From positions 64,001 to 106,907 of IMG/VR virus record IMGVR_UViG_3300011013_000001: a DNA stretch of 42,907 nucleotides; one strand, given 5' to 3'. A program made the translations under genes and the position numbers. Source of the DNA: a virus. The notes under the pieces were generated by a model that ran no database searches, had not been told where the DNA came from, and saw only the letters and a program-made list of their open reading frames with translations. Of the stretch, positions 12,670-34,040 are shown one piece after another. The number at the start of each line of letters is the position of its first letter. Position 1 is the first letter of the stretch.

Positions 12670-12964
12670 ACACGAAGTAATGCTAACAATAGAAGACATA
12701 GCAAAGCGCCGATTGGTATGGGCTAAGCAACTGCTAAAGAAGAATGAGGAGTTGAAAGAGGTAGAGGGTGACCTATACACTGAACTAAGCAACCTTAACG
12801 GAGACAACGAGAAGTTAGAAGCGGAGGTTGAACGGTTGCGTAAGCGCGAAGCGACCTTTGATACTTTCATTGATTCACTTGATGTTCATAACGAACATGA
12901 GTGGATGCTTATTGAACGGATAGATGAGATACATGAGAGACTACATGGAGGCGAGGAAGAATGA
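12662..12964 (+). CDS. Coiled-coil protein, 100 aa
   Basis: AAGGAGGTGATG shortly before the ATG is a near-perfect Shine-Dalgarno. Residues about 25-65 (LLKKNEELKEVEGDLYTELS, then NEKLEAEVERLRKRE) form heptads typical of a coiled coil. It lies between two helicase genes and could bridge or regulate them. No family recognised. Confidence 0.8.
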   Translation: MSRHEVMLTIEDIAKRRLVWAKQLLKKNEELKEVEGDLYTELSNLNGDNEKLEAEVERLRKREATFDTFIDSLDVHNEHEWMLIERIDEIHERLHGGEEE

Positions 12965-14922
12965 GCGTAGCAGTTGAGCGTTACAGCGAAGAGTGGAACG
13001 GCAACACATACAGCCGTGTCTCATTCATCTTTCCTTACAACGATGCTGCGAAGAATGCCCTCAAGACTGCGCTACCTTTCCCCGCGTGCAAGTGGGATGG
13101 TGTGCGTAAGGGTTGGGGTGTGCGTGACACGCCCGCCGATTTACAGACAGCGGTGGCGGCTCTCGCTCCGTTCTACAACTTCGCTCCGTTGGTCAGCGCT
13201 TTGCCTGTGGTTGAGGCTCCGCCTCTCGCATCGTTCAGCGCACCGGACACCATCATTCTTGACTACCCGTTCCGTCCGAATTGGAAAGAGGTGAACGGGG
13301 CGGTCAAGTCGCTCGGCAACGCCAAGTTCAATATGCAGACTAAGGTTTGGAGCATACCGCTACACGCGGCACACCAAATCGCTACGGCTATTGAACCTCA
13401 CTACGCTGAACTCGCCGATGCTATTCGGTCGCTTGAACAGGTGACTACGCACGTTGACGCTGCGAGTGAACGGGTGAGCCTATCGCAAGCAGTGAAACTT
13501 GAGGACGAGAGCGCTGTCCTTGCGATGGTCGCTCCGCAGGGCAAACCGTTCCCGCACCAACTTGTCGCTCCGGCCATGTTCACGGCAGGGGGGCAACACA
13601 GGCTACTCATCGCTGACACAATGGGGTTGGGCAAGACGCTTCAGGCGCTGATGTGTATTGATGCTGCGCAGTTCAAGCGCACACTGATTGTATGTCCGGC
13701 GAACGTCAAATATACTTGGCTCGCTGAATGCGAGAAGTGGTATCAGTGGCACACGCGTAGCGTGATTCGCAACGGCAAGGACGAGGTTCAGCAGACCGCT
13801 TTCACTGTCATTAACTACGAGTTGCTGACCACTAAGTTGAGCGAGTTACAGGCGAACGACTACGATTGTATTGTGTTTGACGAGAGTCATTATCTCAAGA
13901 ACAAGGACACTGCTCGTACTAAGTCAGCACTCACCCTCGCCAATTGGCCTACGGTTAGCGGACTCATCTGTTTGTCAGGCACACCTATCCTCAACAGGCC
14001 TGCCGAGTTCTACAACGTGTTGCGTATGCTCATGCCCGGAACGTTCGCCAATTGGTTTGACTTCGTGAAGAAGTATTCAGGAGCATACAAGGGCGACTTC
14101 GGTTGGGTGACGAGTGGTGCTACTAACATAGACAAGTGCGAAGACGGCGTGACCTTACCGCTCAATCATTTGCTACGCGATGTAATGTTGCGCCGCACTT
14201 ATGACGATGCGGGGATAGCCGAAACGATGCCTGACCTTGTTCAGCAAATTGTAATGGTTGACCTTAGTGATAAGGACAGGAAACTCCACGACTCAGAACT
14301 TGACAGGTGGATGGATGAATACGATAGGCTGTCCGCACTCGGTTCGCTCCCGCAGGGTTATGCTCTTGAGATGCTGACCGCACTGCGCCACCTATGCGGA
14401 CGCATGAAGGTTCAACACGCTGTTGATTGGGCTACTAACTATCACGAGCAGACGGGCAAACCTCTCGTGGTTTTCGCTCACCATCGCGACGTGATTCTCG
14501 GAATCCATGACGGACTCAAGGGACGCACTGCTACGATTACAGGCGAGACTGCATCCGAAACGCGCCAGCAATATGTTGACCTGTTCCAAGCGGGTGACCT
14601 TGACTTCCTTGTGTGCTCAACGCTTGCAGCGAAGGAGGGTATTACACTAACGAATGCTGATACAACTCTGTTCGTTGAACGCGAGTGGGTTCCCGCATGG
14701 GAGCAACAGGCGGCCCACAGGGTCAGGCGTATGTCGCAGGAGAGTAGCGTGTGTCACCAAGTCATCCTGTCTGCGGTTAATTGTATTGACGAGCATTTTG
14801 ACAAGGTGGTAGCGGCTAAAGCCGAAGTGATTAAGCGGGTGCTTGACGGTGACGCTGAGGAGAGAGCGCAGGGTGACATCGTGAAGAGTCTCCTTGCATC
14901 CTTGACGGGGGTGGTAGCGTGA
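12961..14922 (+). CDS. SNF2 helicase with two HARP-like domains (SMARCAL1-like)
   Basis: 653 aa. The N-terminus has two similar segments, about 18-72 (FIFPYNDAAKNAL to KWDGVRKGWGVRD) and 98-150 (LDYPFRPNWKEVNGAVKSLG to KVWSIPL), that read like tandem HARP domains. HARP domains in SMARCAL1 allow strand annealing and fork reversal. The helicase core follows: GLGKT (222-226), DESH (307-310), SGTPILNRP, then the second lobe with VVFAHHRDVI and HRVRRMSQ (motif VI). It is an ATP-driven DNA remodeller, likely acting on replication forks or recombination intermediates. ATG overlaps the coiled-coil gene's stop. Confidence 0.88.
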   Translation: MSVAVERYSEEWNGNTYSRVSFIFPYNDAAKNALKTALPFPACKWDGVRKGWGVRDTPADLQTAVAALAPFYNFAPLVSALPVVEAPPLASFSAPDTIILDYPFRPNWKEVNGAVKSLGNAKFNMQTKVWSIPLHAAHQIATAIEPHYAELADAIRSLEQVTTHVDAASERVSLSQAVKLEDESAVLAMVAPQGKPFPHQLVAPAMFTAGGQHRLLIADTMGLGKTLQALMCIDAAQFKRTLIVCPANVKYTWLAECEKWYQWHTRSVIRNGKDEVQQTAFTVINYELLTTKLSELQANDYDCIVFDESHYLKNKDTARTKSALTLANWPTVSGLICLSGTPILNRPAEFYNVLRMLMPGTFANWFDFVKKYSGAYKGDFGWVTSGATNIDKCEDGVTLPLNHLLRDVMLRRTYDDAGIAETMPDLVQQIVMVDLSDKDRKLHDSELDRWMDEYDRLSALGSLPQGYALEMLTALRHLCGRMKVQHAVDWATNYHEQTGKPLVVFAHHRDVILGIHDGLKGRTATITGETASETRQQYVDLFQAGDLDFLVCSTLAAKEGITLTNADTTLFVEREWVPAWEQQAAHRVRRMSQESSVCHQVILSAVNCIDEHFDKVVAAKAEVIKRVLDGDAEERAQGDIVKSLLASLTGVVA

Positions 14923-20917: not shown

Positions 20918-21375
20918 TGTGGTATTTCGGTGACCCTTGTTATGTGGTTGATGATTGGGTAGCGTTTTGGACTAAACTCAAGAAAAACGATTGGAAGGAT
21001 GGTGAGATTGAATGGTGCGGTCAGACGATAGAGATTATGTCTAACGGTGGTGACGGCGTTTGGAGATTTGAAGGTCTTGATACAGCATACGGCAACGAGT
21101 TCGGCGTGGACGCGGGTATCTTCTGCGCTATGCCTATGTCTGTGTTAGACAAGACGGTTGAGGAAATTAGAGAGCGCGACTTAGGTATGCTCTTTAAGCA
21201 AGAGCCTGAAGTGTATGTCAAGAATGGTATCGTTTTCATTAACGACACACCCGACTCTTCCGCCGAAGAGTGCGAGGGGTGTAATAGCGTTGATGATAGC
21301 GGTAATTTTACTTGGTGTAACTGCGGCTACGCTTTTTGTTTTGGTTGCGATTGTACGGAGTGTGAGGAAGCATGA
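20917..21375 (+). CDS. Unknown protein beginning with GDPCYV motif, Cys-rich tail
   Basis: 152 aa starting MWYFGDPCYVVDDWVAFW. The GDPCYV start resembles small proteins seen in phages and large DNA viruses, function unknown. The C-terminus has many Cys (CEGC, CNCG, CFGCDCTEC), likely binding one or two zinc ions. ATG overlaps the previous stop by one base. Confidence 0.75.
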   Translation: MWYFGDPCYVVDDWVAFWTKLKKNDWKDGEIEWCGQTIEIMSNGGDGVWRFEGLDTAYGNEFGVDAGIFCAMPMSVLDKTVEEIRERDLGMLFKQEPEVYVKNGIVFINDTPDSSAEECEGCNSVDDSGNFTWCNCGYAFCFGCDCTECEEA

Positions 21376-21632
21376 ATACAGACAAATACGAAGGGCATAG
21401 CGAAGATGAAGAAACTTGGAGTAAGTATGCGAATTGGGCTACTGAGAGATACCCTAGAGATGCGGACGAACAACTCATAGCAGACGAACAACTCATAGCA
21501 GACGCACCACTTCTCCTCGCAGAAGTCAAGCGGTTGCGTGAAGCGATTGCTGATATTGCTATCAACATGGAGGCGGCTGACGAATCATACATGGGTGGCT
21601 TCATTGAAGATTTGAGGAAGGTGATAGAATGA
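21372..21632 (+). CDS. Tandem family member 1: DTDKYEG-type tag plus coiled coil
   Basis: 86 aa. N-terminus MNTDKYEGHSED carries the tag; the middle has DEQLIADEQLIADAPLLLAE, in which an 18-bp unit is duplicated in tandem; then VKRLRE begins a short coiled coil. The LIADAPLLLAEVKRLRE phrase is one I associate with phage proteins of unknown function. First of five adjacent related genes. Confidence 0.8.
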   Translation: MNTDKYEGHSEDEETWSKYANWATERYPRDADEQLIADEQLIADAPLLLAEVKRLREAIADIAINMEAADESYMGGFIEDLRKVIE

Positions 21633-21986
21633 TTGATACAGACAAATACGAAGGACAGATTGAGTTTGATTATGTATTGAAAGAGATTGAAGTTGGCGTA
21701 GATATATCCGAAGGCAACTACGACATACTACGATACTACCGAGATGAATACAAAGACCTGCTCGCAGAAGTCAAGCGGTTGCGTGAGCAAAACAAATTGA
21801 TGGTGGATTACTTTCGCTTCATGCGTGATGGTGGATTCACTGACGATGATTGGAGAACAGTAAATGAATGGATAGGAGATGATTGAATGATTGATTTAGA
21901 TATGTTAGAAGAATTATACAACGATGATATTAGTAGAGCAAGCGAGTGGATTCCCGACCTGCTCGCAGAAGTCAAGCGGTTGCGTG
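21516..21986 (+). repeat. 25-bp coding repeat in three adjacent genes
   Basis: CTCGCAGAAGTCAAGCGGTT plus GCGTG occurs at 21516-21540, 21761-21785 and 21962-21986 without a mismatch; a fourth, slightly diverged copy lies near 22356-22378. Such identity points to recent duplication or gene conversion. Confidence 0.9.
21629..21886 (+). CDS. Tandem family member 2: MIDTDKYEG tag plus coiled coil
   Basis: 85 aa. MIDTDKYEGQIEFDY at the start and DLLAEVKRLREQNKL in the centre, joined by unrelated sequence. The coding DNA for LAEVKRLR (21761-21785) is identical over 25 bp to members 1 and 3. ATG overlaps the previous stop. Confidence 0.8.
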   Translation: MIDTDKYEGQIEFDYVLKEIEVGVDISEGNYDILRYYRDEYKDLLAEVKRLREQNKLMVDYFRFMRDGGFTDDDWRTVNEWIGDD

Positions 21987-22081
21987 AAGTGATGAGTAAG
22001 GTGGTAACAATTCTTGGACCTAATGAAATTGATGCAGAAGAATTACTCATTAGTGCTTTGACGGAGAGTGAGAAAGAATGA
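21887..22081 (+). CDS. Tandem family member 3: coiled coil with a decayed tag
   Basis: 64 aa. Begins MIDLDMLEELYND, only partly like the tag, followed by DLLAEVKRLREVMSKV with the same 25-bp coding repeat (21962-21986). Shows that the coiled-coil part can occur without the full tag. Confidence 0.75.
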   Translation: MIDLDMLEELYNDDISRASEWIPDLLAEVKRLREVMSKVVTILGPNEIDAEELLISALTESEKE

Positions 22082-22230
22082 TTGACACAGACAAATATGA
22101 AGGACACATGGATTGGTATGAGGATGGGTATTGTCCTAAGTGTGATGAGAGATGGAACATTGATTCTCACGCATGGCATTGTCCTACTTGTGATGCAAAA
22201 TTGATTGAGAGGGTGAAGAAAAATGATTGA
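22078..22230 (+). CDS. Tandem family member 4: tag fused to a zinc ribbon
   Basis: 50 aa, MIDTDKYEGHMDWYEDGYCP and on, with two CxxC pairs (CPKC and CPTC) and His residues, a complete zinc ribbon. It has the tag but no coiled coil. ATG overlaps the previous stop and its own stop overlaps the next start, so it fits the coupled series. Confidence 0.75.
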   Translation: MIDTDKYEGHMDWYEDGYCPKCDERWNIDSHAWHCPTCDAKLIERVKKND

Positions 22231-22501
22231 CACAGACAAATACGAAGGACATACACCTGCTCATGCTTGGCGAATGGCTGATGGTTCGGCTATGTTCATG
22301 CAATCGGCTAACAATAATGCTGATGCACAACTCATAGCAGACGCACCACTTCTCTTAGCAGAAGTCAAGCGGTTGCGCCGTGTCATTGAGGACATTGAAT
22401 CCATGATACCTGACAACCACGAAGAGGTAAGCCCTGTCTTGAGCGATATTCTTAGTGAATGTCACAGGGTGCTACCCATGTTCAACGAGGTGATTGAATG
22501 A
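22223..22501 (+). CDS. Tandem family member 5: tag plus coiled coil
   Basis: 92 aa. MIDTDKYEGHTPAHAW, then DAQLIADAPLLLAEVKRLRR, a near copy of member 1 in this part. The tail (SPVLSDILSECHRVLPMFNE) is helical. Overlaps the next gene by an ATGA junction. Confidence 0.8.
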   Translation: MIDTDKYEGHTPAHAWRMADGSAMFMQSANNNADAQLIADAPLLLAEVKRLRRVIEDIESMIPDNHEEVSPVLSDILSECHRVLPMFNEVIE

Positions 22502-23724: not shown

Positions 23725-23730
23725 ACGTGA

Positions 23731-25107
23731 CTGACTTCGTTAGAAAAAGCGGCGCGGCTTGCTACTCTCCTCCGGCGCGATGCCGACAAGAGCAAACGAG
23801 TTCTGTATGCTCACGTTCAGCGGTTCTCTCGTAACCACCCGCCCGGTGACGTGGCGGAGATTGCCGAGTTCTTTTACGGTCACAAAGTAATGAGCGTGGA
23901 TACGCTGATGGTGACGGTCGGGACGTATGTTGGCATTCACGGTGAAGAGTGGGACGTGCTACTTGACAGCGAAATCCGGCGCGCTCGGAGCATAGTTCCA
24001 CTGCTTGCGAGCGAGTCGCCCATCAAGCCGAAGCGACCCTTGCGCCTGTCTGTACCACAGGCGACCCTCCTGTTATACGATTTACAGAAAAGAGACAGGC
24101 GGGGCACAGTCATCAGTCAGATTTTTGAGAGAGTTAGCAGGGAAGAAGCGATGCTCCTTTGGGCTAGAGTGTTGGGGGAATACCCCCCTGTACGCAAACG
24201 CAATTTTCTGAGAGCGATAGCCAAGTGTAGTGGCTACGCTGCCGAGCGGTTGGGGCAAGCGTGCAAAACGCATGGGATAGGCGCTGTCGTTAAATCGGCT
24301 CTTGACGGCTCGCTACCCCGCTCCCACGAAATCGTGGCTGGAGTCCCATTCTCGCCCGCCGTATATACCCGATGGGTTAATTGGCAACCGCCTTACGAGC
24401 ATACTCTTTACGAGGCAATATCCACGACTCGCGCCTTCGTGCATAAATCCCCTGACGGTGTTTGGGTGTTCCGCCGTTCAGGTGAGAGATGGGCACCGCA
24501 CCCTCCACTTGAAGGGTTGCCTGACTGTGAAGAAGTGGTGGCTGAAGTGGAGCAGCGCGGTGACAAACTCGTGTTAGCGGACTTACTACACTCGTCCGAG
24601 CATCCTCAGAATTGGAAACGCCCGTGTTCCGAGCGGCTGAAATTGGCTCGCTCGCTGCGTGATTCCGACCAATTATTGAGCCTGTTACGCAACCTTGAGC
24701 GTAACACCACCTTGCGCCTATCAGATGCTGGCGCTCCTTATTTTGATTCCAACGGCGAAGGAGGCTGTATAGCACCTTCGTCCCTCTTTGAAGTCCCGTT
24801 GCTACTCACACGCGTTCGCGTGGTTGACGGCATGGGCGAACTGTGCCTATCGGCAGCCGATGGGTACGACTACGAGCAGGTGGCATGCGTCCCCTGCGAC
24901 CCTCAGATTCTCCGTGTTCCGCGACTACGCGGACACCTTACCTCACGATGGGTTGACATCGAAGCACTTGGCGTTATCATCGTGTGCATCGCTTTCGGGT
25001 ATGACGGCGAAAGCATAGACGGGTGCTCACCTTTGCGCCTTGACGGTTCGCTCGGATTAAGCGACACTATTCAAAAGGGTGACCTCTTCGCATTATCAGA
25101 TGCGTAG
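23731..25107 (+). CDS. ATP-dependent DNA ligase-like protein without catalytic lysine
   Basis: 458 aa if it starts at CTG 23731; the first ATG/GTG option is GTG 23851. The 40 upstream codons look like real protein (LTSLEKAARLATLLRRDADK), and GGGGTGA sits 5-8 nt before the CTG. LRLSVPQATLLLYDL, then FERVSREEAMLLWARVLGE and NFLRAIAKCSGYA, match the N-terminal DNA-binding domain of archaeal ligases. GVPFSPAVY then TRAFVHKSPDGVWVFRRSGE matches the region around motif I, but where ligases have Lys in KYDG this has AIST (229-232). ADLLHSSEHPQNWKRPCSER fits motif IV, and the end is OB-like. The lysine pattern of motif V is also absent. It is probably unable to ligate by the usual route. Confidence 0.6.
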   Translation: MTSLEKAARLATLLRRDADKSKRVLYAHVQRFSRNHPPGDVAEIAEFFYGHKVMSVDTLMVTVGTYVGIHGEEWDVLLDSEIRRARSIVPLLASESPIKPKRPLRLSVPQATLLLYDLQKRDRRGTVISQIFERVSREEAMLLWARVLGEYPPVRKRNFLRAIAKCSGYAAERLGQACKTHGIGAVVKSALDGSLPRSHEIVAGVPFSPAVYTRWVNWQPPYEHTLYEAISTTRAFVHKSPDGVWVFRRSGERWAPHPPLEGLPDCEEVVAEVEQRGDKLVLADLLHSSEHPQNWKRPCSERLKLARSLRDSDQLLSLLRNLERNTTLRLSDAGAPYFDSNGEGGCIAPSSLFEVPLLLTRVRVVDGMGELCLSAADGYDYEQVACVPCDPQILRVPRLRGHLTSRWVDIEALGVIIVCIAFGYDGESIDGCSPLRLDGSLGLSDTIQKGDLFALSDA

Positions 25108-25453
25108 CGATGACTTCTATCTTGCATGGCTTGCACGCGAAGCACGATTCACCTGCGTTATCAGATTCGCTCCCGAGAGACCTCTCGGTTACAGACCCCT
25201 GCGTCACGTGGTAGTATCTATCCGGCCTGAACCTGAATTACAGGCGTGGCTCAAAACCAAAGGAATAGAAAACAGGTTTGTTGGTGACGCCGCAGGTATC
25301 AGAAAAATCCTGCACCTCCTTGCTCCTGTCTCTGATTTTGTTAAGGATAAAAAAGGCATGGAAAAAATAACAAAGATGGTAGTCAAACCCCTACGGGGTT
25401 TGAAGCATGAGGAGTTGTTCCAATCATTCCGACGTTTCTTGTATTATTCTTAG
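25100..25453 (+). CDS. Candidate degenerate LAGLIDADG-fold protein
   Basis: 117 aa from ATG 25100; GTG 25079 is an alternative. YLAWLAREARFTCVI near residue 7, followed by HVVVSIRPEPELQAWLK and a C-terminal helix, recalls one LAGLIDADG half domain, although the acidic residue of the motif is missing. LAGLIDADG proteins are homing nucleases or DNA binders. Overlaps the end of the ligase-like gene. The codons for KPLRG lie in a perfect hairpin (25384-25402). The family call is weak. Confidence 0.5.
   Translation: MRSDDFYLAWLAREARFTCVIRFAPERPLGYRPLRHVVVSIRPEPELQAWLKTKGIENRFVGDAAGIRKILHLLAPVSDFVKDKKGMEKITKMVVKPLRGLKHEELFQSFRRFLYYS
25384..25402 (+). promoter_or_regulatory. Perfect hairpin inside the 3' end of a gene
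   Basis: CAAACCCC (25384-25391) and GGGGTTTG (25395-25402) pair fully around TAC, about 50 bp before the stop codon and 150 bp before promoter P5. There is no T tract close behind. It may slow transcription or mark the 3' end of the P4 transcript. Confidence 0.5.
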
Positions 25454-25586: not shown

Positions 25587-26564
25587 ATGACTCAAAATGA
25601 GACTGTTTGGAGAGAAAGATACAGGCCGACAAAATTGACACAACTTATCGGGTTAGACAAATTGACCGCTGACATAGCGTCATGGGGGACAACAAACAAT
25701 TGGCCTGCCGCGCTGCTTTTTGCTGGACCACCCGGTACAGGTAAGACTACGACAGCCGGAGTAATTGCTAACGAGATGCTCGGCGAATCCCTTGTCGCTA
25801 ACTTCCACGAGACTAACGGCTCAGACGAGAGAGGTATTGATTTCATCCGTGACAACATTAAGCAGATGGCGCGAATCAATCCGTTGGGTTGCCCCCGCAA
25901 GGTGATACTACTCGACGAGGCTGACGGGTTGACTAAGCCTGCGCAGGAAGCGCTACGCCGCACGATGGAGAAGTATAGCGACAAGAGCATGTTCATTCTC
26001 ACGGCTAACAATAAGCATGCCATCATCCCTGCCATCCAATCTCGCTGCGTAACCTACGACTTCACACCTTACACAGTAGCAGAAGTGGCCGACCTCATGG
26101 GTCGTCTTATGGCGCAAGGGGCGCACATGCCCCTAGGGTGGTCTGAGTCTTACGACCTACTCCATTCAGCCACAGGCGGTGACTTGCGTCAGTGCGTTGA
26201 CCTTTTACAATCTACTGCTAAAGAACCCGAAGCACTGCACGAGAGGCTCGTTGGCCTGTCCCGTGACTTATCCAATCCCGCGTTATCAATAGCGGCGGGT
26301 GACTACGAATCACTACGCGTTGAACTGAAGCGTTTGGCCGAGGGGCACCTCTCCAACTTGGAGATGCTGCGCCGGCTTCATCAGTTCGTTAGGACACTCG
26401 GTATGGATGCCGGGCAGTTCACATCTTATTCCGTTGTATGGGGGGACTTTGTAATGAAGGCGACCACATGGCCGTTAGGGGCAGAAGAGTTCATAGACTA
26501 CTTCGTGGCGTCCCTACAATCCCCCGTGCAGCGGGAACTAGAAACCGATAAAAAAGGAGTATGA
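25587..26564 (+). CDS. Replication factor C small subunit (clamp loader)
   Basis: 325 aa. WRERYRPTKLTQLIG at the start is the RFC box II pattern. Walker A GPPGTGKT is at 47-54, Walker B LLDEAD at 108-113, and the SRC motif at 152-154 in IQSRC. The C-terminal part forms the collar. RFC opens and loads PCNA using ATP. No large subunit is present in the window, so the loader is either made of small subunits only or borrows the host's. First gene of the replication unit. Confidence 0.95.
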   Translation: MTQNETVWRERYRPTKLTQLIGLDKLTADIASWGTTNNWPAALLFAGPPGTGKTTTAGVIANEMLGESLVANFHETNGSDERGIDFIRDNIKQMARINPLGCPRKVILLDEADGLTKPAQEALRRTMEKYSDKSMFILTANNKHAIIPAIQSRCVTYDFTPYTVAEVADLMGRLMAQGAHMPLGWSESYDLLHSATGGDLRQCVDLLQSTAKEPEALHERLVGLSRDLSNPALSIAAGDYESLRVELKRLAEGHLSNLEMLRRLHQFVRTLGMDAGQFTSYSVVWGDFVMKATTWPLGAEEFIDYFVASLQSPVQRELETDKKGV

Positions 26565-29195: not shown

Positions 29196-29332
29196 GTGAT
29201 AGACTTACTTGCTACAACGTGAACTGTCGTGTGAACGAATACTTCCGTATGGATATGCAAGACCGGGAAGAGACCGCATGGTCGCATTTGGATTCTAACC
29301 AATGCCCCGGTTGCTCGGAGGTGGGTGAATGA
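29192..29332 (+). CDS. Zinc-binding mini-protein, 46 aa
   Basis: MSDRLTCYNVNCRVNEYFRM and then CPGCSEVGE: two Cys pairs, spaced about 28 residues. The ATG overlaps the previous stop and its stop overlaps the next start. Confidence 0.7.
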   Translation: MSDRLTCYNVNCRVNEYFRMDMQDREETAWSHLDSNQCPGCSEVGE

Positions 29333-30672
29333 GTGAAGGTATTGAATACCCTGCCTTACCCGATGAAGTTCTGTCAACTCGTACTAACATGAATATCAGT
29401 AGTATCAAATCGGCTATGGAGCGCGGACAACTCATTATCAATGAGGCGTATCAACGCGAGGCAGTCCAACGCTCTAAACCTGACTTCAGGACCCGGCTTA
29501 TAGAATCGGTGTTGATGAACTTCCCAATCCCACCTATCACTATACTCAAAACGCCGAGCGGTCAGCCTGATGAGATTCTTGACGGGCAGCAACGTGTGAC
29601 TACAGTCTTAGACTTCATGAAAATTGACGGCTCGTTCTCTATCAAGGGCGAAGCGCTAATGAAATTAGATTATGATATATTCAGTAAAAAGAAGTTCAAG
29701 GATTTACCCGAAGAGTATCAATGGCGCATAGAAAATTACAAGATAGGTGTAGACGAAGTCAGGGAGACTGACGATTACCCTGCTGAGGATATTTATACAA
29801 TCATGAATACTAATCGTATTGATATGAAACACGAAGAACTAATGAAATCTCGTTACTGTCGTGAGGACGCTTATCAGTTGCTCGCTGAATATAGCGAGAG
29901 TGAGCCATGGTTATCTTCGGTAGCGGCTAAGAGAAACAGTCGTTGTAAAGCGACAGGGTTGGCATTCAAGGCACTGATGTCTATTGATTATGGCAACGCT
30001 CTACCGTCAGGTTCCCAAGGTAAGTGTTTGGAGTGCTATATGGAGAGAGTTCTACGAGGGAATAATCCCACGCCCGGTAATGTATTGAGAGCGAAACTAC
30101 AATCAACCTTGAGGTTGCTCAAATCTGTTTTCGGTGACACTCCTTCTATGAAAATAGATTATGTAATCCCGTCCAATACTAAACTGTACAGTATTAACTT
30201 TTACATACTGTTCTATTGCATCCGTAGGGCTAAAACTGAATACAGTTCTCAAACAATTGAGTCTAACGCTGGCGCTATTAGAGAAGGCTTCTATGCTTTT
30301 GTTAACGAACACCGTTACGATTATTTGGAAAACCGTGCCCTTTCAGGTAAGGCTATATCAAAACGCAACTTGCACTGTTGGGACAACTTCTTTCACCCGT
30401 TATTGGAATTATTGACAGAAGACGAGCCTACCCGTGATGAGCGTAGGATTTTTACACCCACTCAGCGAGTTGTGATTATCGGTAAGGCGTTGGAAGAGGA
30501 AGGTGGCATATTCTGTCACTACTGTAAAAACGAAATTATGTCCGTTGATTCAGTGGAGATAGACCACATAAAACCGTGGTCGGAAGGCGGTAAAACCGTT
30601 ATAGAGAACGGAGCAGTGATTCATTCATCGTGCAACAAAGAGCGACATCATGCAAGAGGTGAGGAAGAATGA
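29329..30672 (+). CDS. DUF262 (GmrSD-like) protein with C-terminal HNH nuclease
   Basis: 447 aa. NEAYQREAVQRSK and EILDGQQRVTTVLDF (DGQQR at 85-89) are the ParB-like DUF262 signature. At the C-terminus CHYCKN, then EIDHIKPWSEGGKTVIENGA and SCNKERH form a complete HNH nuclease with zinc-binding Cys. DUF262-HNH proteins occur in type IV restriction (GmrSD) and other defence systems and cut modified or foreign DNA using nucleotide hydrolysis. Here it lies in the replication operon, so it could attack host or rival DNA or act in viral DNA processing. Confidence 0.85.
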   Translation: MSEGIEYPALPDEVLSTRTNMNISSIKSAMERGQLIINEAYQREAVQRSKPDFRTRLIESVLMNFPIPPITILKTPSGQPDEILDGQQRVTTVLDFMKIDGSFSIKGEALMKLDYDIFSKKKFKDLPEEYQWRIENYKIGVDEVRETDDYPAEDIYTIMNTNRIDMKHEELMKSRYCREDAYQLLAEYSESEPWLSSVAAKRNSRCKATGLAFKALMSIDYGNALPSGSQGKCLECYMERVLRGNNPTPGNVLRAKLQSTLRLLKSVFGDTPSMKIDYVIPSNTKLYSINFYILFYCIRRAKTEYSSQTIESNAGAIREGFYAFVNEHRYDYLENRALSGKAISKRNLHCWDNFFHPLLELLTEDEPTRDERRIFTPTQRVVIIGKALEEEGGIFCHYCKNEIMSVDSVEIDHIKPWSEGGKTVIENGAVIHSSCNKERHHARGEEE

Positions 30673-31415
30673 CTCGCGTGACTGTAGATAAGGACGACCT
30701 GCGCAAGTTCGTGCAATCGTTCGGGCACAACGTGATTGACCTGAAACTGAGCGCTCACGAGTTCAGCCTCAACGGTGGCGTAGCCATGCCAACTCATTTC
30801 TTCACTCAACGAATTAGTGCTACTGTTGATGAGGCGGGTGAGTTCATCATACCCGACATCTCTAAGGTGGTAGCGTTTCTACGAGCGTGTGATGGTAATA
30901 CTATCACAATGTGGCAGAGACCCGGTCGCCCGCTCCACTTGAGCAACGGTAGCACCGAAGTAACGATACCGGCAGTGGACGGCGTACGCAGTTCTGAACG
31001 GTTGTCGGTCATCGCTAAACTCGTTAGCGCTAGTATTGAGAACGAGTGGAGTGAGTGGGCTGGTGAAAGGTTGAACTGTCACGGCAAAATCACGGATACC
31101 AATTCTCTCCTGCCTGTATCACGGATGGTTAGCGTGGTCGGTAAAGACAAAGTGTTCACTACAACGTTCGCTGAGGATGGTATCACGTTCTCAGCAGGCG
31201 ACAAGAGTGATGCGCAGATGAGCGTAACCATAGAGGCGGAGACCGGTGTGGTACCCGAGGGCGGAGTGTCAAACACCTTTGGTGGATGGCTGCCTGTTCT
31301 GCTGAACGCGCTACCGGCCGGACCTTGTTATGTGTATACAGGCGAAGACAGCGTCATGGTGTTCAGTCATGCTGAGAAGGAATGCTTGTTGGTCGTAGTA
31401 CCGCAGGGGGAGTGA
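30669..31415 (+). CDS. Candidate second sliding clamp
   Basis: 248 aa. The pattern is that of a clamp built of two or more similar domains: VTVDKDDLRKFVQSFGHNVI, then RISATVDEAGEFIIPDISKV, then FLRACDGNTITMW, repeated in looser form later (VFTTTFAEDGITFSAGD, then ending in PCYVYTGEDSVMVFSHAEKE). It is closer in feel to the phage T4 gp45 type than to PCNA. It stands near PolB, two genes upstream. No strong single motif exists in this family, so the call needs structure prediction. Confidence 0.5.
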   Translation: MTRVTVDKDDLRKFVQSFGHNVIDLKLSAHEFSLNGGVAMPTHFFTQRISATVDEAGEFIIPDISKVVAFLRACDGNTITMWQRPGRPLHLSNGSTEVTIPAVDGVRSSERLSVIAKLVSASIENEWSEWAGERLNCHGKITDTNSLLPVSRMVSVVGKDKVFTTTFAEDGITFSAGDKSDAQMSVTIEAETGVVPEGGVSNTFGGWLPVLLNALPAGPCYVYTGEDSVMVFSHAEKECLLVVVPQGE

Positions 31416-31419
31416 GGCT

Positions 31420-31686
31420 ATGCCTACTAAGAAAATAGGAAAGCGGACCAATCAAAAACTCATTAGAAGGATGCACGAAGTGTTGTTTCAGCACGGGCCT
31501 ATGAGCGCCAACGAATTGTCCTGCAAAATCTATGACCTTTACCCCAATTTCAAAAGGTTCCATCGTAGCGCCATGATACTAAGTCAATTGATGGTCGGGC
31601 GACCTAAGATGTTCAAGTCACTCGGTGTATCTTCTACTCATCGGTGTTTACTGTGGGAAGCGTTACCGCGAGGTGAAGAGGAATGA
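31420..31686 (+). CDS. Candidate winged-helix protein, 88 aa
   Basis: GGGGGAGTG precedes the ATG at a good distance. LIRRMHEVLFQHGPMSANEL followed by AMILSQLMVGRPKMFKSLG reads like a winged helix, similar to the protein at 22635. Basic N-terminus. It lies between the second clamp and PolB and overlaps the PolB start; perhaps a regulator or accessory factor. Confidence 0.65.
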   Translation: MPTKKIGKRTNQKLIRRMHEVLFQHGPMSANELSCKIYDLYPNFKRFHRSAMILSQLMVGRPKMFKSLGVSSTHRCLLWEALPRGEEE

Positions 31687-34040
31687 TTTGCGACCAATTC
31701 TTTCAGCGTGGTAGCGACAACCCGAGCATATACACTCGGTATCGTGACGCTAACGGTGACGTAATTTCTCAAACGCGCGACGACTTCAAGTCCTTCTTTT
31801 GGGTGGACGCCGAGCGTACGCCTGATTGGAAGATTGACAAAATGGTGAAACAGTATCCGGGTACTACCGTGATGCGCGATGTACGAGCGACAGGTTTGGA
31901 CGGCAGACCGCTGATGAAGGTGGAGTGTTATACCCCGAAGGATATGTATAACATGCGCGGGTTCTTCGGTAAGACTTACGAGGCCGATATTCGGTTCCCT
32001 GATAAGTTCATCATTGATAACTACACTGAGTTACCTCGCTGGTCACCCCGTAAGTGGTGGTTTGATATTGAGTGTGACACAGGCGACGACAACTTCTCCA
32101 CTATCATAGCGGTAGTGGACTCCGACCTTGACACGCCTGTCGTGTTCGCGTGGGCGGACGAGCGAACCAACTGCCCGTTCACCGTAGACAAAACGAAAGT
32201 GCAGACTATCGCTTGCGAAGTGAGAGGCGTGGAGTATGAGTTACGCTTAACTGATAGTGAAGACTCCATGCACGATTCGTTCGTTGAGTTCTTCTTGGAA
32301 CGTGACCCCGATATGCTCGTAGCGCACGGCGGAATGTTCTTTGATTTCCCTCAGTTGTGGAAACGGATGAAGGACCCGAACGTCCTCTCACCGGTAGGCA
32401 AGTTCCGCAAACCGGAAGGCGGACACTACCAACGCAGAAACGGTGCCACCAACTACACGGCTCAGCCGATAGTAGGTCGGTGGTGTTTTGACACAAGTGC
32501 GCCGGCAACGAGCGGTACAGGCTTTGAACGGGTATGGAAGGATAGCGGTAAGGGTCAACTTGCTTCGCGCAAGTTGAACGATATTGCCGAAATGCTTGAC
32601 CTCGGTAGTAAACTGACTGAAGAGATTGAAGATATGGACGTGCACAACGGATGGTACGAGTATTGGTCAGACTACGTAGACTACTGTCTGCTTGACGCAG
32701 TACTCCTGCGTGACATTGACCTGTCGCAGAACGTGACCGACTTCTTCGTGGAGATGGTCCGCTTATGCGGTGTGACATTTGAGAGTACGGCCAACGTGAC
32801 CAACTTCGGTCGTGGCCTTCTTATGAGGCGTACATCACTCAAGGCTCCGAGCAGGATGAAGAGCGAGCGTGATGACCTTCAAGGTGCCGAAGTCGGCCTC
32901 TCTTTTGTTAGAGGGCGACACGAAGGCGTGGGCATTTACGACTACAAAGGGTTGTACCCGAGTCTGATTCTCGGCAACAATCTATCGTTTGAGACCAAGC
33001 GAAGCGGGCCGGGCGTAGGCGTCAAAATGATGGAGAACGGTACGTATTGGGACCAAACGAAAAAGGGGTTGCTACCCGAAGTCATTGAATATCTGTTTGA
33101 CTATCGTGACGAATGCAAGGCTAAGGCCCGTGACGACACACGTTCGCCTGAAGAACAGTTAGCGTGGCAGACCACCGAGAAAGCAGTCAAGCGAGTTATG
33201 GCGTCACTGTACGGCATGACCGCTCACGCAGGCTACGGTTGGGCGGACGCTGATATTGCCACCACCATTACGAGCGAAGGACGCCGCGCCATCCATATTC
33301 TCAGCCGTCATGCTGAGCGTAAGGGTTACCCTACTTTGTACGGCCACACTGATAGCGCGTTCCTCAAAGTGCCTCGTGAGGAGGCTGACGCTTTAGCCGA
33401 AGAGTTGACCCAATCCGTGCAAGCGGAGACGGGCAACGACAAACTATTCGTGGAACTTGAAGAGTGGATGCCGTATTGGTTACTCGTCAAGAAGAATCGC
33501 TATGTCGGTAAGAACGAGGCTGGTAAAATGAAAGTGGCCGGCTTCGCTATGAAAGCGAGCACTTCGTCTAAACTTAGCAAGCGAGTGCAAGAGACCGCAT
33601 TCAATTTGATTTGCGATGGTGCAGACGAGAACGCAGTGACCAAGGATATGCGGGCGATAGTCCGTGAAATCAAGGACGGGGAGATACAGGCGAGCGAGGT
33701 CTGCACGACCACGCGGCTCGGTATGGATTTAGACAAATACAAAACGCTGTCCGGCGCGAGCCGGGCTGCTGATTATTACAACAAACACATCTGCAACGGT
33801 GACGAACCATATGGTGCAGGTGACAGCGTGTCGTGGGTACACGTGAGCAGGGTTCCTGCTGACAAGCCTGACACGGATATTGTTGCGTTCAAGGACGAGG
33901 GCGACCTTAGCGGGTTCGTCATTGACCAAGCGACAATAATCAAGAAAATGGTGACGGCGAAATTGAAGTCGTCATACGATACGCTCGGGTGGGATTTAGA
34001 TGCCGCTTCGGGTGCCCCTATTCCCAAAAGGTATTGGTGA
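31683..34040 (+). CDS. polB: Family B DNA polymerase
   Basis: 785 aa. Exonuclease motifs: Exo I WFDIE (Asp128, Glu130), Exo II-like HGGMFFDFP (215-223), Exo III YCLLD (Tyr334, Asp338). Polymerase motif A DYKGLYPSLI (420-429), motif B KRVMASLYG (503-511), motif C YGHTDS (553-558). Two unusual residues: Ala507 where most have Asn in KxxxNSxYG, and His555 where most have Asp in YGDTDS. The key catalytic Asp420 and Asp557 are present. It copies DNA with proofreading and would be tethered by a clamp. No intein is seen. Confidence 0.95.
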   Translation: MICDQFFQRGSDNPSIYTRYRDANGDVISQTRDDFKSFFWVDAERTPDWKIDKMVKQYPGTTVMRDVRATGLDGRPLMKVECYTPKDMYNMRGFFGKTYEADIRFPDKFIIDNYTELPRWSPRKWWFDIECDTGDDNFSTIIAVVDSDLDTPVVFAWADERTNCPFTVDKTKVQTIACEVRGVEYELRLTDSEDSMHDSFVEFFLERDPDMLVAHGGMFFDFPQLWKRMKDPNVLSPVGKFRKPEGGHYQRRNGATNYTAQPIVGRWCFDTSAPATSGTGFERVWKDSGKGQLASRKLNDIAEMLDLGSKLTEEIEDMDVHNGWYEYWSDYVDYCLLDAVLLRDIDLSQNVTDFFVEMVRLCGVTFESTANVTNFGRGLLMRRTSLKAPSRMKSERDDLQGAEVGLSFVRGRHEGVGIYDYKGLYPSLILGNNLSFETKRSGPGVGVKMMENGTYWDQTKKGLLPEVIEYLFDYRDECKAKARDDTRSPEEQLAWQTTEKAVKRVMASLYGMTAHAGYGWADADIATTITSEGRRAIHILSRHAERKGYPTLYGHTDSAFLKVPREEADALAEELTQSVQAETGNDKLFVELEEWMPYWLLVKKNRYVGKNEAGKMKVAGFAMKASTSSKLSKRVQETAFNLICDGADENAVTKDMRAIVREIKDGEIQASEVCTTTRLGMDLDKYKTLSGASRAADYYNKHICNGDEPYGAGDSVSWVHVSRVPADKPDTDIVAFKDEGDLSGFVIDQATIIKKMVTAKLKSSYDTLGWDLDAASGAPIPKRYW

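Follow-up and report, generated by a model that had tools for sequence, protein, structure and literature searches.

According to the profiles of the International Committee on Taxonomy of Viruses and to a survey, magroviruses possess an ATP-dependent DNA ligase and, for that reason, rely little on host replication factors. A single short read carries a magrovirus ligase gene together with a prohead protease gene (PMC7318539). The archaeal ligase of Pyrococcus furiosus (Pfu) carries a PCNA-binding motif, QKSFF, at residues 103-107 (PMC6212441), and catalytically dead DNA ligase IV (Lig4) promotes repair and helps Lig3, which indicates a structural role on DNA ends (PMC9638927). Here we describe a homologue of ATP-dependent DNA ligases that lacks the catalytic lysine (P0001, 458 aa; hereafter the pseudo-ligase). 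It is encoded by an open frame at positions 23731..25107 (+ strand) of the final 42.9 kb (42,907 nt) of the 106,907-base virus record IMGVR_UViG_3300011013_000001. This whole stretch is called the window, and positions refer to it unless stated otherwise. Judged by gene content, the source virus is a magrovirus, a tailed virus of the Poseidoniales, archaea that are abundant in the ocean, because its gene set (PolB, RFC-S, a primase-like gene, an ERCC4 nuclease and a thermosome) agrees with published magrovirus descriptions. A second contig, IMGVR_UViG_3300009703_000172, encodes the same protein at 100% identity. The literature searched, with partial coverage, yielded no described lysine-less viral DNA ligase.

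The fold of the pseudo-ligase was predicted with AlphaFold2 from an input alignment of 14 family members (predicted local distance difference test score 79.8; predicted template modelling score, pTM, 0.56). When known structures were searched with this model by Foldseek, the top match was the Thermococcus gammatolerans ligase (9dfa; E 1.4e-14), and DNA ligases accounted for all 50 of the best matches listed. Alignment to 9dfa with VIA-align 2 gave a Z score of 17.8 over 441 of the 458 residues, with a root-mean-square deviation of 6.3. The preliminary description of this gene had read its features as following the order of archaeal ATP-dependent ligases and had proposed structure prediction as a check; the model indeed contains the predicted ligase domains in that order. 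A helical region resembling the DNA-binding domain (DBD; approximately residues 2-200, 23734..24330, net charge +11), identified from the model helices and from the hhalign match to the Pfu N-terminal domain, is followed by a nucleotidyltransferase (NTase)-like region (approximately residues 201-352, 24331..24786), seen in the model strands and the fold match. An OB-fold-like region, likewise taken from the model and the fold match, completes the protein (approximately residues 353-458, 24787..25104). All three lie on the + strand and their boundaries are approximate.

Profile comparison points in the same direction. The family of 28 sequences (the pseudo-ligase and 27 relatives) aligned with 11 archaeal ligases at an hhalign P of 3.7e-6, the match spanning the DNA-binding domain and the beginning of the NTase domain. 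The best P value among 28 controls (20 column shuffles, two reversals and six other families from the window) was 0.054. The ligase set consisted of the Pfu query, which was verified over its full length against 2cfm, and ten others taken from genome contigs. Models from Pfam, NCBIfam and PHROG all fail to recognise the pseudo-ligase, and neither a PDB sequence search nor family-library searches with the protein or its alignment returned matches. Searches of phage records by tblastn with magrovirus members of the family gave chance matches or none.

The same register reveals the loss of the catalytic lysine. Pfu EIKYDGAR aligns to EA-ISTTR of the pseudo-ligase, and AIST (24415..24426, + strand) stands in place of the ligase KYDG of motif I, as had been noticed in the preliminary description. 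Counting from the glycine position, the residue at the motif I lysine position is Ala229. This lysine is absent from 26 of the 28 family sequences (the pseudo-ligase and 25 of its 27 aligned relatives); the relatives mostly read EIVRGKR at motif I, and the lysine position is mostly occupied by Ile or Val. In the region equivalent to motifs IV and V (RLSDAGAPYFDSNGEGGCIAPSS; 24715..24783, + strand), a manual gapless alignment gives RLSD and CIAPSS, and the lysines are absent here too. The earlier report of missing motif V lysines is thus borne out, on a weaker basis than motif I: statements on motifs IV and V come from manual reading because the global hhalign alignment is unreliable beyond residue 288.

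The preliminary description had also allowed that the active site might have moved. At columns where at least 40% of the 28 sequences have lysine, the pseudo-ligase has a lysine at only one, K296 (13 of 28). A relocated catalytic lysine is therefore unlikely, because none of the lysines of the pseudo-ligase is well conserved in the family, and this candidate was rejected. Given the fold, the profile comparison and the 28-member alignment, we are highly confident that the pseudo-ligase derives from a ligase and is inactive.

A different element has been preserved with great fidelity. The motif LASESP (residues 92-97; 24004..24021, + strand) is nearly invariant in the family, and in the hhalign register it falls on the loop corresponding to the QKSFF loop of Pfu ligase. 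No canonical PCNA-interacting peptide (PIP) box was seen in the pseudo-ligase, and the position of LASESP in the corresponding loop suggests a site for the sliding clamp or another partner. The idea that LASESP is a motif common to several replisome proteins was discarded, as it occurs once among the genes of the window.

The full extent of the gene probably involves an unusual start codon. The 458-codon frame opens immediately past a TGA at 23728-23730, and it contains no ATG, GTG or TTG upstream of 23851. Translation is likely to begin at the CTG at 23731, because homology to the relatives begins at about residue 2-5 and AGGGGTGA is located 6 bases upstream of this codon. Without the CTG start, the gene would drop its first 40 residues, which are common to the relatives.

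Relatives of the pseudo-ligase were gathered by inspecting the regions that precede RFC and PolB in other magroviruses and by alignment scan. The 27 that were aligned have long intact frames and share 23-30% identity with it. Strong purifying selection is evident from dN/dS values of 0.04-0.17 in 47 pairs of relatives (at least 72% identity, estimate defined). The family is therefore kept by selection across many viruses, which makes a structural job on DNA probable. Gene order is stable too: among the 18 contigs in which tblastn recognises the pseudo-ligase, 17 retain the order pseudo-ligase, 25079 gene, RFC-S, 26561 gene, 27889 gene, 30669 gene and PolB. The exception (L100) has no recognisable 25079 gene. 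The pseudo-ligase diverges more rapidly than the adjacent genes: it is 23-31% identical, and PolB 39-61%, within the same contigs. A divergent group (L038-L046) encodes a related protein at the corresponding position upstream of RFC-S; it matches the family of the pseudo-ligase at an hhalign P of 6.6e-18 and ligases directly at a P of only 0.16.

An intact ligase was sought in the same viruses. PF04675, PF01653 and RNA-ligase profiles had no match in the magrovirus records searched, this record included, and PF01068 had no match other than a domain at the C-terminus of a giant protein. A scan of the record for KxDGx[RK] produced no ligase-like frame. The single match in a long frame is KWDGVRK in a 653-aa helicase-like open reading frame (ORF) at 12961-14922; read by eye, it either resembles ligase motif I by coincidence or belongs to a HARP-like domain. 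The 107-kb record yielded no intact ligase; most magrovirus records are fragments, and a very diverged active ligase could escape these searches.

The giant protein is encoded outside the window by a 1966-codon frame (record positions 39400-45297, - strand) flanked by the genes for the prohead protease and the portal, and relatives were found in 217 viral contig stretches. Its C-terminus has a predicted ligase-like NTase-OB fold. Lysine is missing from the motif I position in all 62 sequences of this domain, 14 of which have one a residue upstream (SKWYDG). Direct ancestry between this domain and the family of the pseudo-ligase is unsupported (hhalign P 0.11). The giant protein is probably the 'ATP-dependent DNA ligase' of the magrovirus literature, because the published ligase gene shares its short read with a prohead protease gene. 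It is present in part in L001, L004 and L005.

These observations bear on what magroviruses are thought to bring with them. The published claim that they carry their own working ligase needs rechecking, because, in the sequences found here, the one domain that family models detect has no motif I lysine, and a second homologue, missed by those models and encoded in the replication module, lacks it too. Should this be true, these abundant ocean viruses need the ligase of their host, and a ligase that is inactive by nature would offer a clean system for studying the roles of ligases on DNA beyond sealing.

What the pseudo-ligase does can be proposed from its architecture. A structural or DNA-end-binding role, as first suggested in the preliminary description, fits the modelled protein because the whole fold is kept, the DBD is basic, the gene is syntenic with replisome genes and its sequence is under purifying selection. 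We give about even odds to the reading that it is a non-catalytic, ligase-derived part of the magrovirus replisome that binds DNA and leaves sealing to the host. The three-domain clamp (DBD, NTase and OB) would have been retained while lysine-AMP chemistry was lost. Retention of the clamp fold, of the basic DBD and of a place in the replisome cluster suggests docking on duplex DNA or a nick without sealing, and the LASESP loop may attach the protein to the sliding clamp or another partner. Once docked, the protein might hold or mark the nick until a real ligase seals it, or prevent premature sealing; this specific nick-holding role is plausible, if somewhat less probable than the general reading. 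Sealing is assigned to the host ligase because the record yielded none, and hand-off to that enzyme is our first choice because of the precedent of inactive ligase IV, which supports repair and assists ligase III. More speculatively, many magroviruses may lack a working ligase and have two dead ones, the first in the replisome and the second encoded in the structural module, with the replisome protein acting as a 'nick guard' that times host sealing.

Several observations weigh against this proposal. The fold is a prediction from 14 sequences with a pTM of 0.56, so the placement of domains is uncertain, and DNA binding is indicated indirectly, through the predicted fold and the basic DBD. LASESP is not among known PCNA-binding motifs. 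The preliminary description had drawn support from neighbouring PC4-like and PCNA genes. The first of these stands weakly, with a match at E 0.002 that lies under the Pfam cut-off. The second was not confirmed: the product of 30669-31415 has no match, and that of 19353-20177 matches PCNA_C only, at E 0.014. Finally, in the close relatives L015 and L077 a lysine occupies the motif I register (KSSG and KSNG, respectively), in sequences that lack the motif I aspartate and the motif IV and V lysines.

The strongest competing explanation, which we nevertheless consider unlikely, is that the pseudo-ligase competes with or inhibits the host ligase. A dead protein that blocks nicks, and perhaps the sliding clamp, could stop host Okazaki-fragment joining or leave nicks unsealed for use in viral recombination or packaging. 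An entire clamp fold without catalysis is what one would expect of a dominant-negative ligase, and the more rapid change of the pseudo-ligase relative to adjacent genes is often seen in host-facing proteins. However, synteny links it to viral replication genes, and a virus that encodes PolB and RFC itself also has nicks that need sealing.

It is improbable that the pseudo-ligase is still an enzyme, one that uses another nucleophile or performs the last step only, on DNA adenylated by another ligase. Some ligases whose catalytic lysine has been mutated still join pre-adenylated nicks, and L015 and L077 do have a lysine in the motif I register. Yet the family has no well-conserved lysine, those of motifs IV and V are lost too, and the L015 and L077 lysine is not common to their relative L050 at 74% identity. 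We hold it to be similarly improbable that the NTase fold has been re-used to bind a nucleotide or the 5′ end of a nucleic acid. Snurportin-1 is the model for this reading: its cap-binding domain has a guanylyltransferase-like fold that lacks the lysine. A hint of similar re-use comes from the structural module, where 14 of 32 members of the giant-protein domain match the Pfam snurportin cap-binding domain (best E 1.8e-6). Decay into a functionless remnant can be dismissed almost entirely: one relative (L035/L096) is interrupted by a stop or frameshift, possibly an assembly error, but the dN/dS values and long intact frames of the family reject it.

Further genes lie near the pseudo-ligase, the first three described here on the + strand. 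The gene at 25079..25453, small, conserved and of unassigned family, overlaps the 3′ end of the pseudo-ligase gene and adjoins it in 17 of the 18 contigs (synteny, alignment A5). Its product has no confident match in family libraries or the PDB; by eye its start, FFLAWLAR..RF..SVHF, is like a degenerate LAGLIDADG-like domain, for which the libraries give no confirmation. The small subunit of replication factor C, the clamp loader, follows at 25587..26564 (Pfam AAA; PHROG clamp loader, E 2.7e-48; synteny). The cluster also encodes a family B DNA polymerase (31683..34040; NCBIfam, synteny), which has 46 relatives among other viral contigs besides the near-identical contig, nearly all at 44-61% identity. 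Within the replication cluster, 29329-30672 encodes a GmrSD N-terminal domain fused to an HNH nuclease, a gene not detected near the corresponding place in the other magroviruses compared. Small ORFs at 21372-22501 have the motifs M(I)DTDKYEG and/or LLAEVKRLRE in common and are probably tandem paralogues.

Compared with archaeal ligases (9dfa; Pfu, 2cfm), the pseudo-ligase has the same predicted DBD-NTase-OB arrangement over nearly its whole length, at about 16-17% identity in structural alignment. It differs in being about 100 residues shorter and below Pfam detection, in having Ala for the motif I lysine and no motif IV and V lysines, and in having LASESP instead of QKSFF in the PIP-box loop. 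The DNA ligase of Halogranum tailed virus 1 (R4T9C5), also from an archaeal tailed virus, is similar in size and fold; that protein is recognisable by tblastn with Pfu ligase, whereas the magrovirus family lies below that level. The giant-protein domain shares the ligase NTase-OB fold and the absence of the motif I lysine. Unlike the pseudo-ligase, it lacks a DNA-binding domain within the stretch that was folded, is detectable with PF01068 and belongs to a gene adjoining that of the prohead protease. The K273A form of DNA ligase IV offers a further parallel, as a dead ligase that has a structural role on DNA ends in end joining and promotes another ligase (PMC9638927). That protein is a laboratory mutant, whereas the pseudo-ligase represents a natural, lineage-wide loss within a replication gene cluster.
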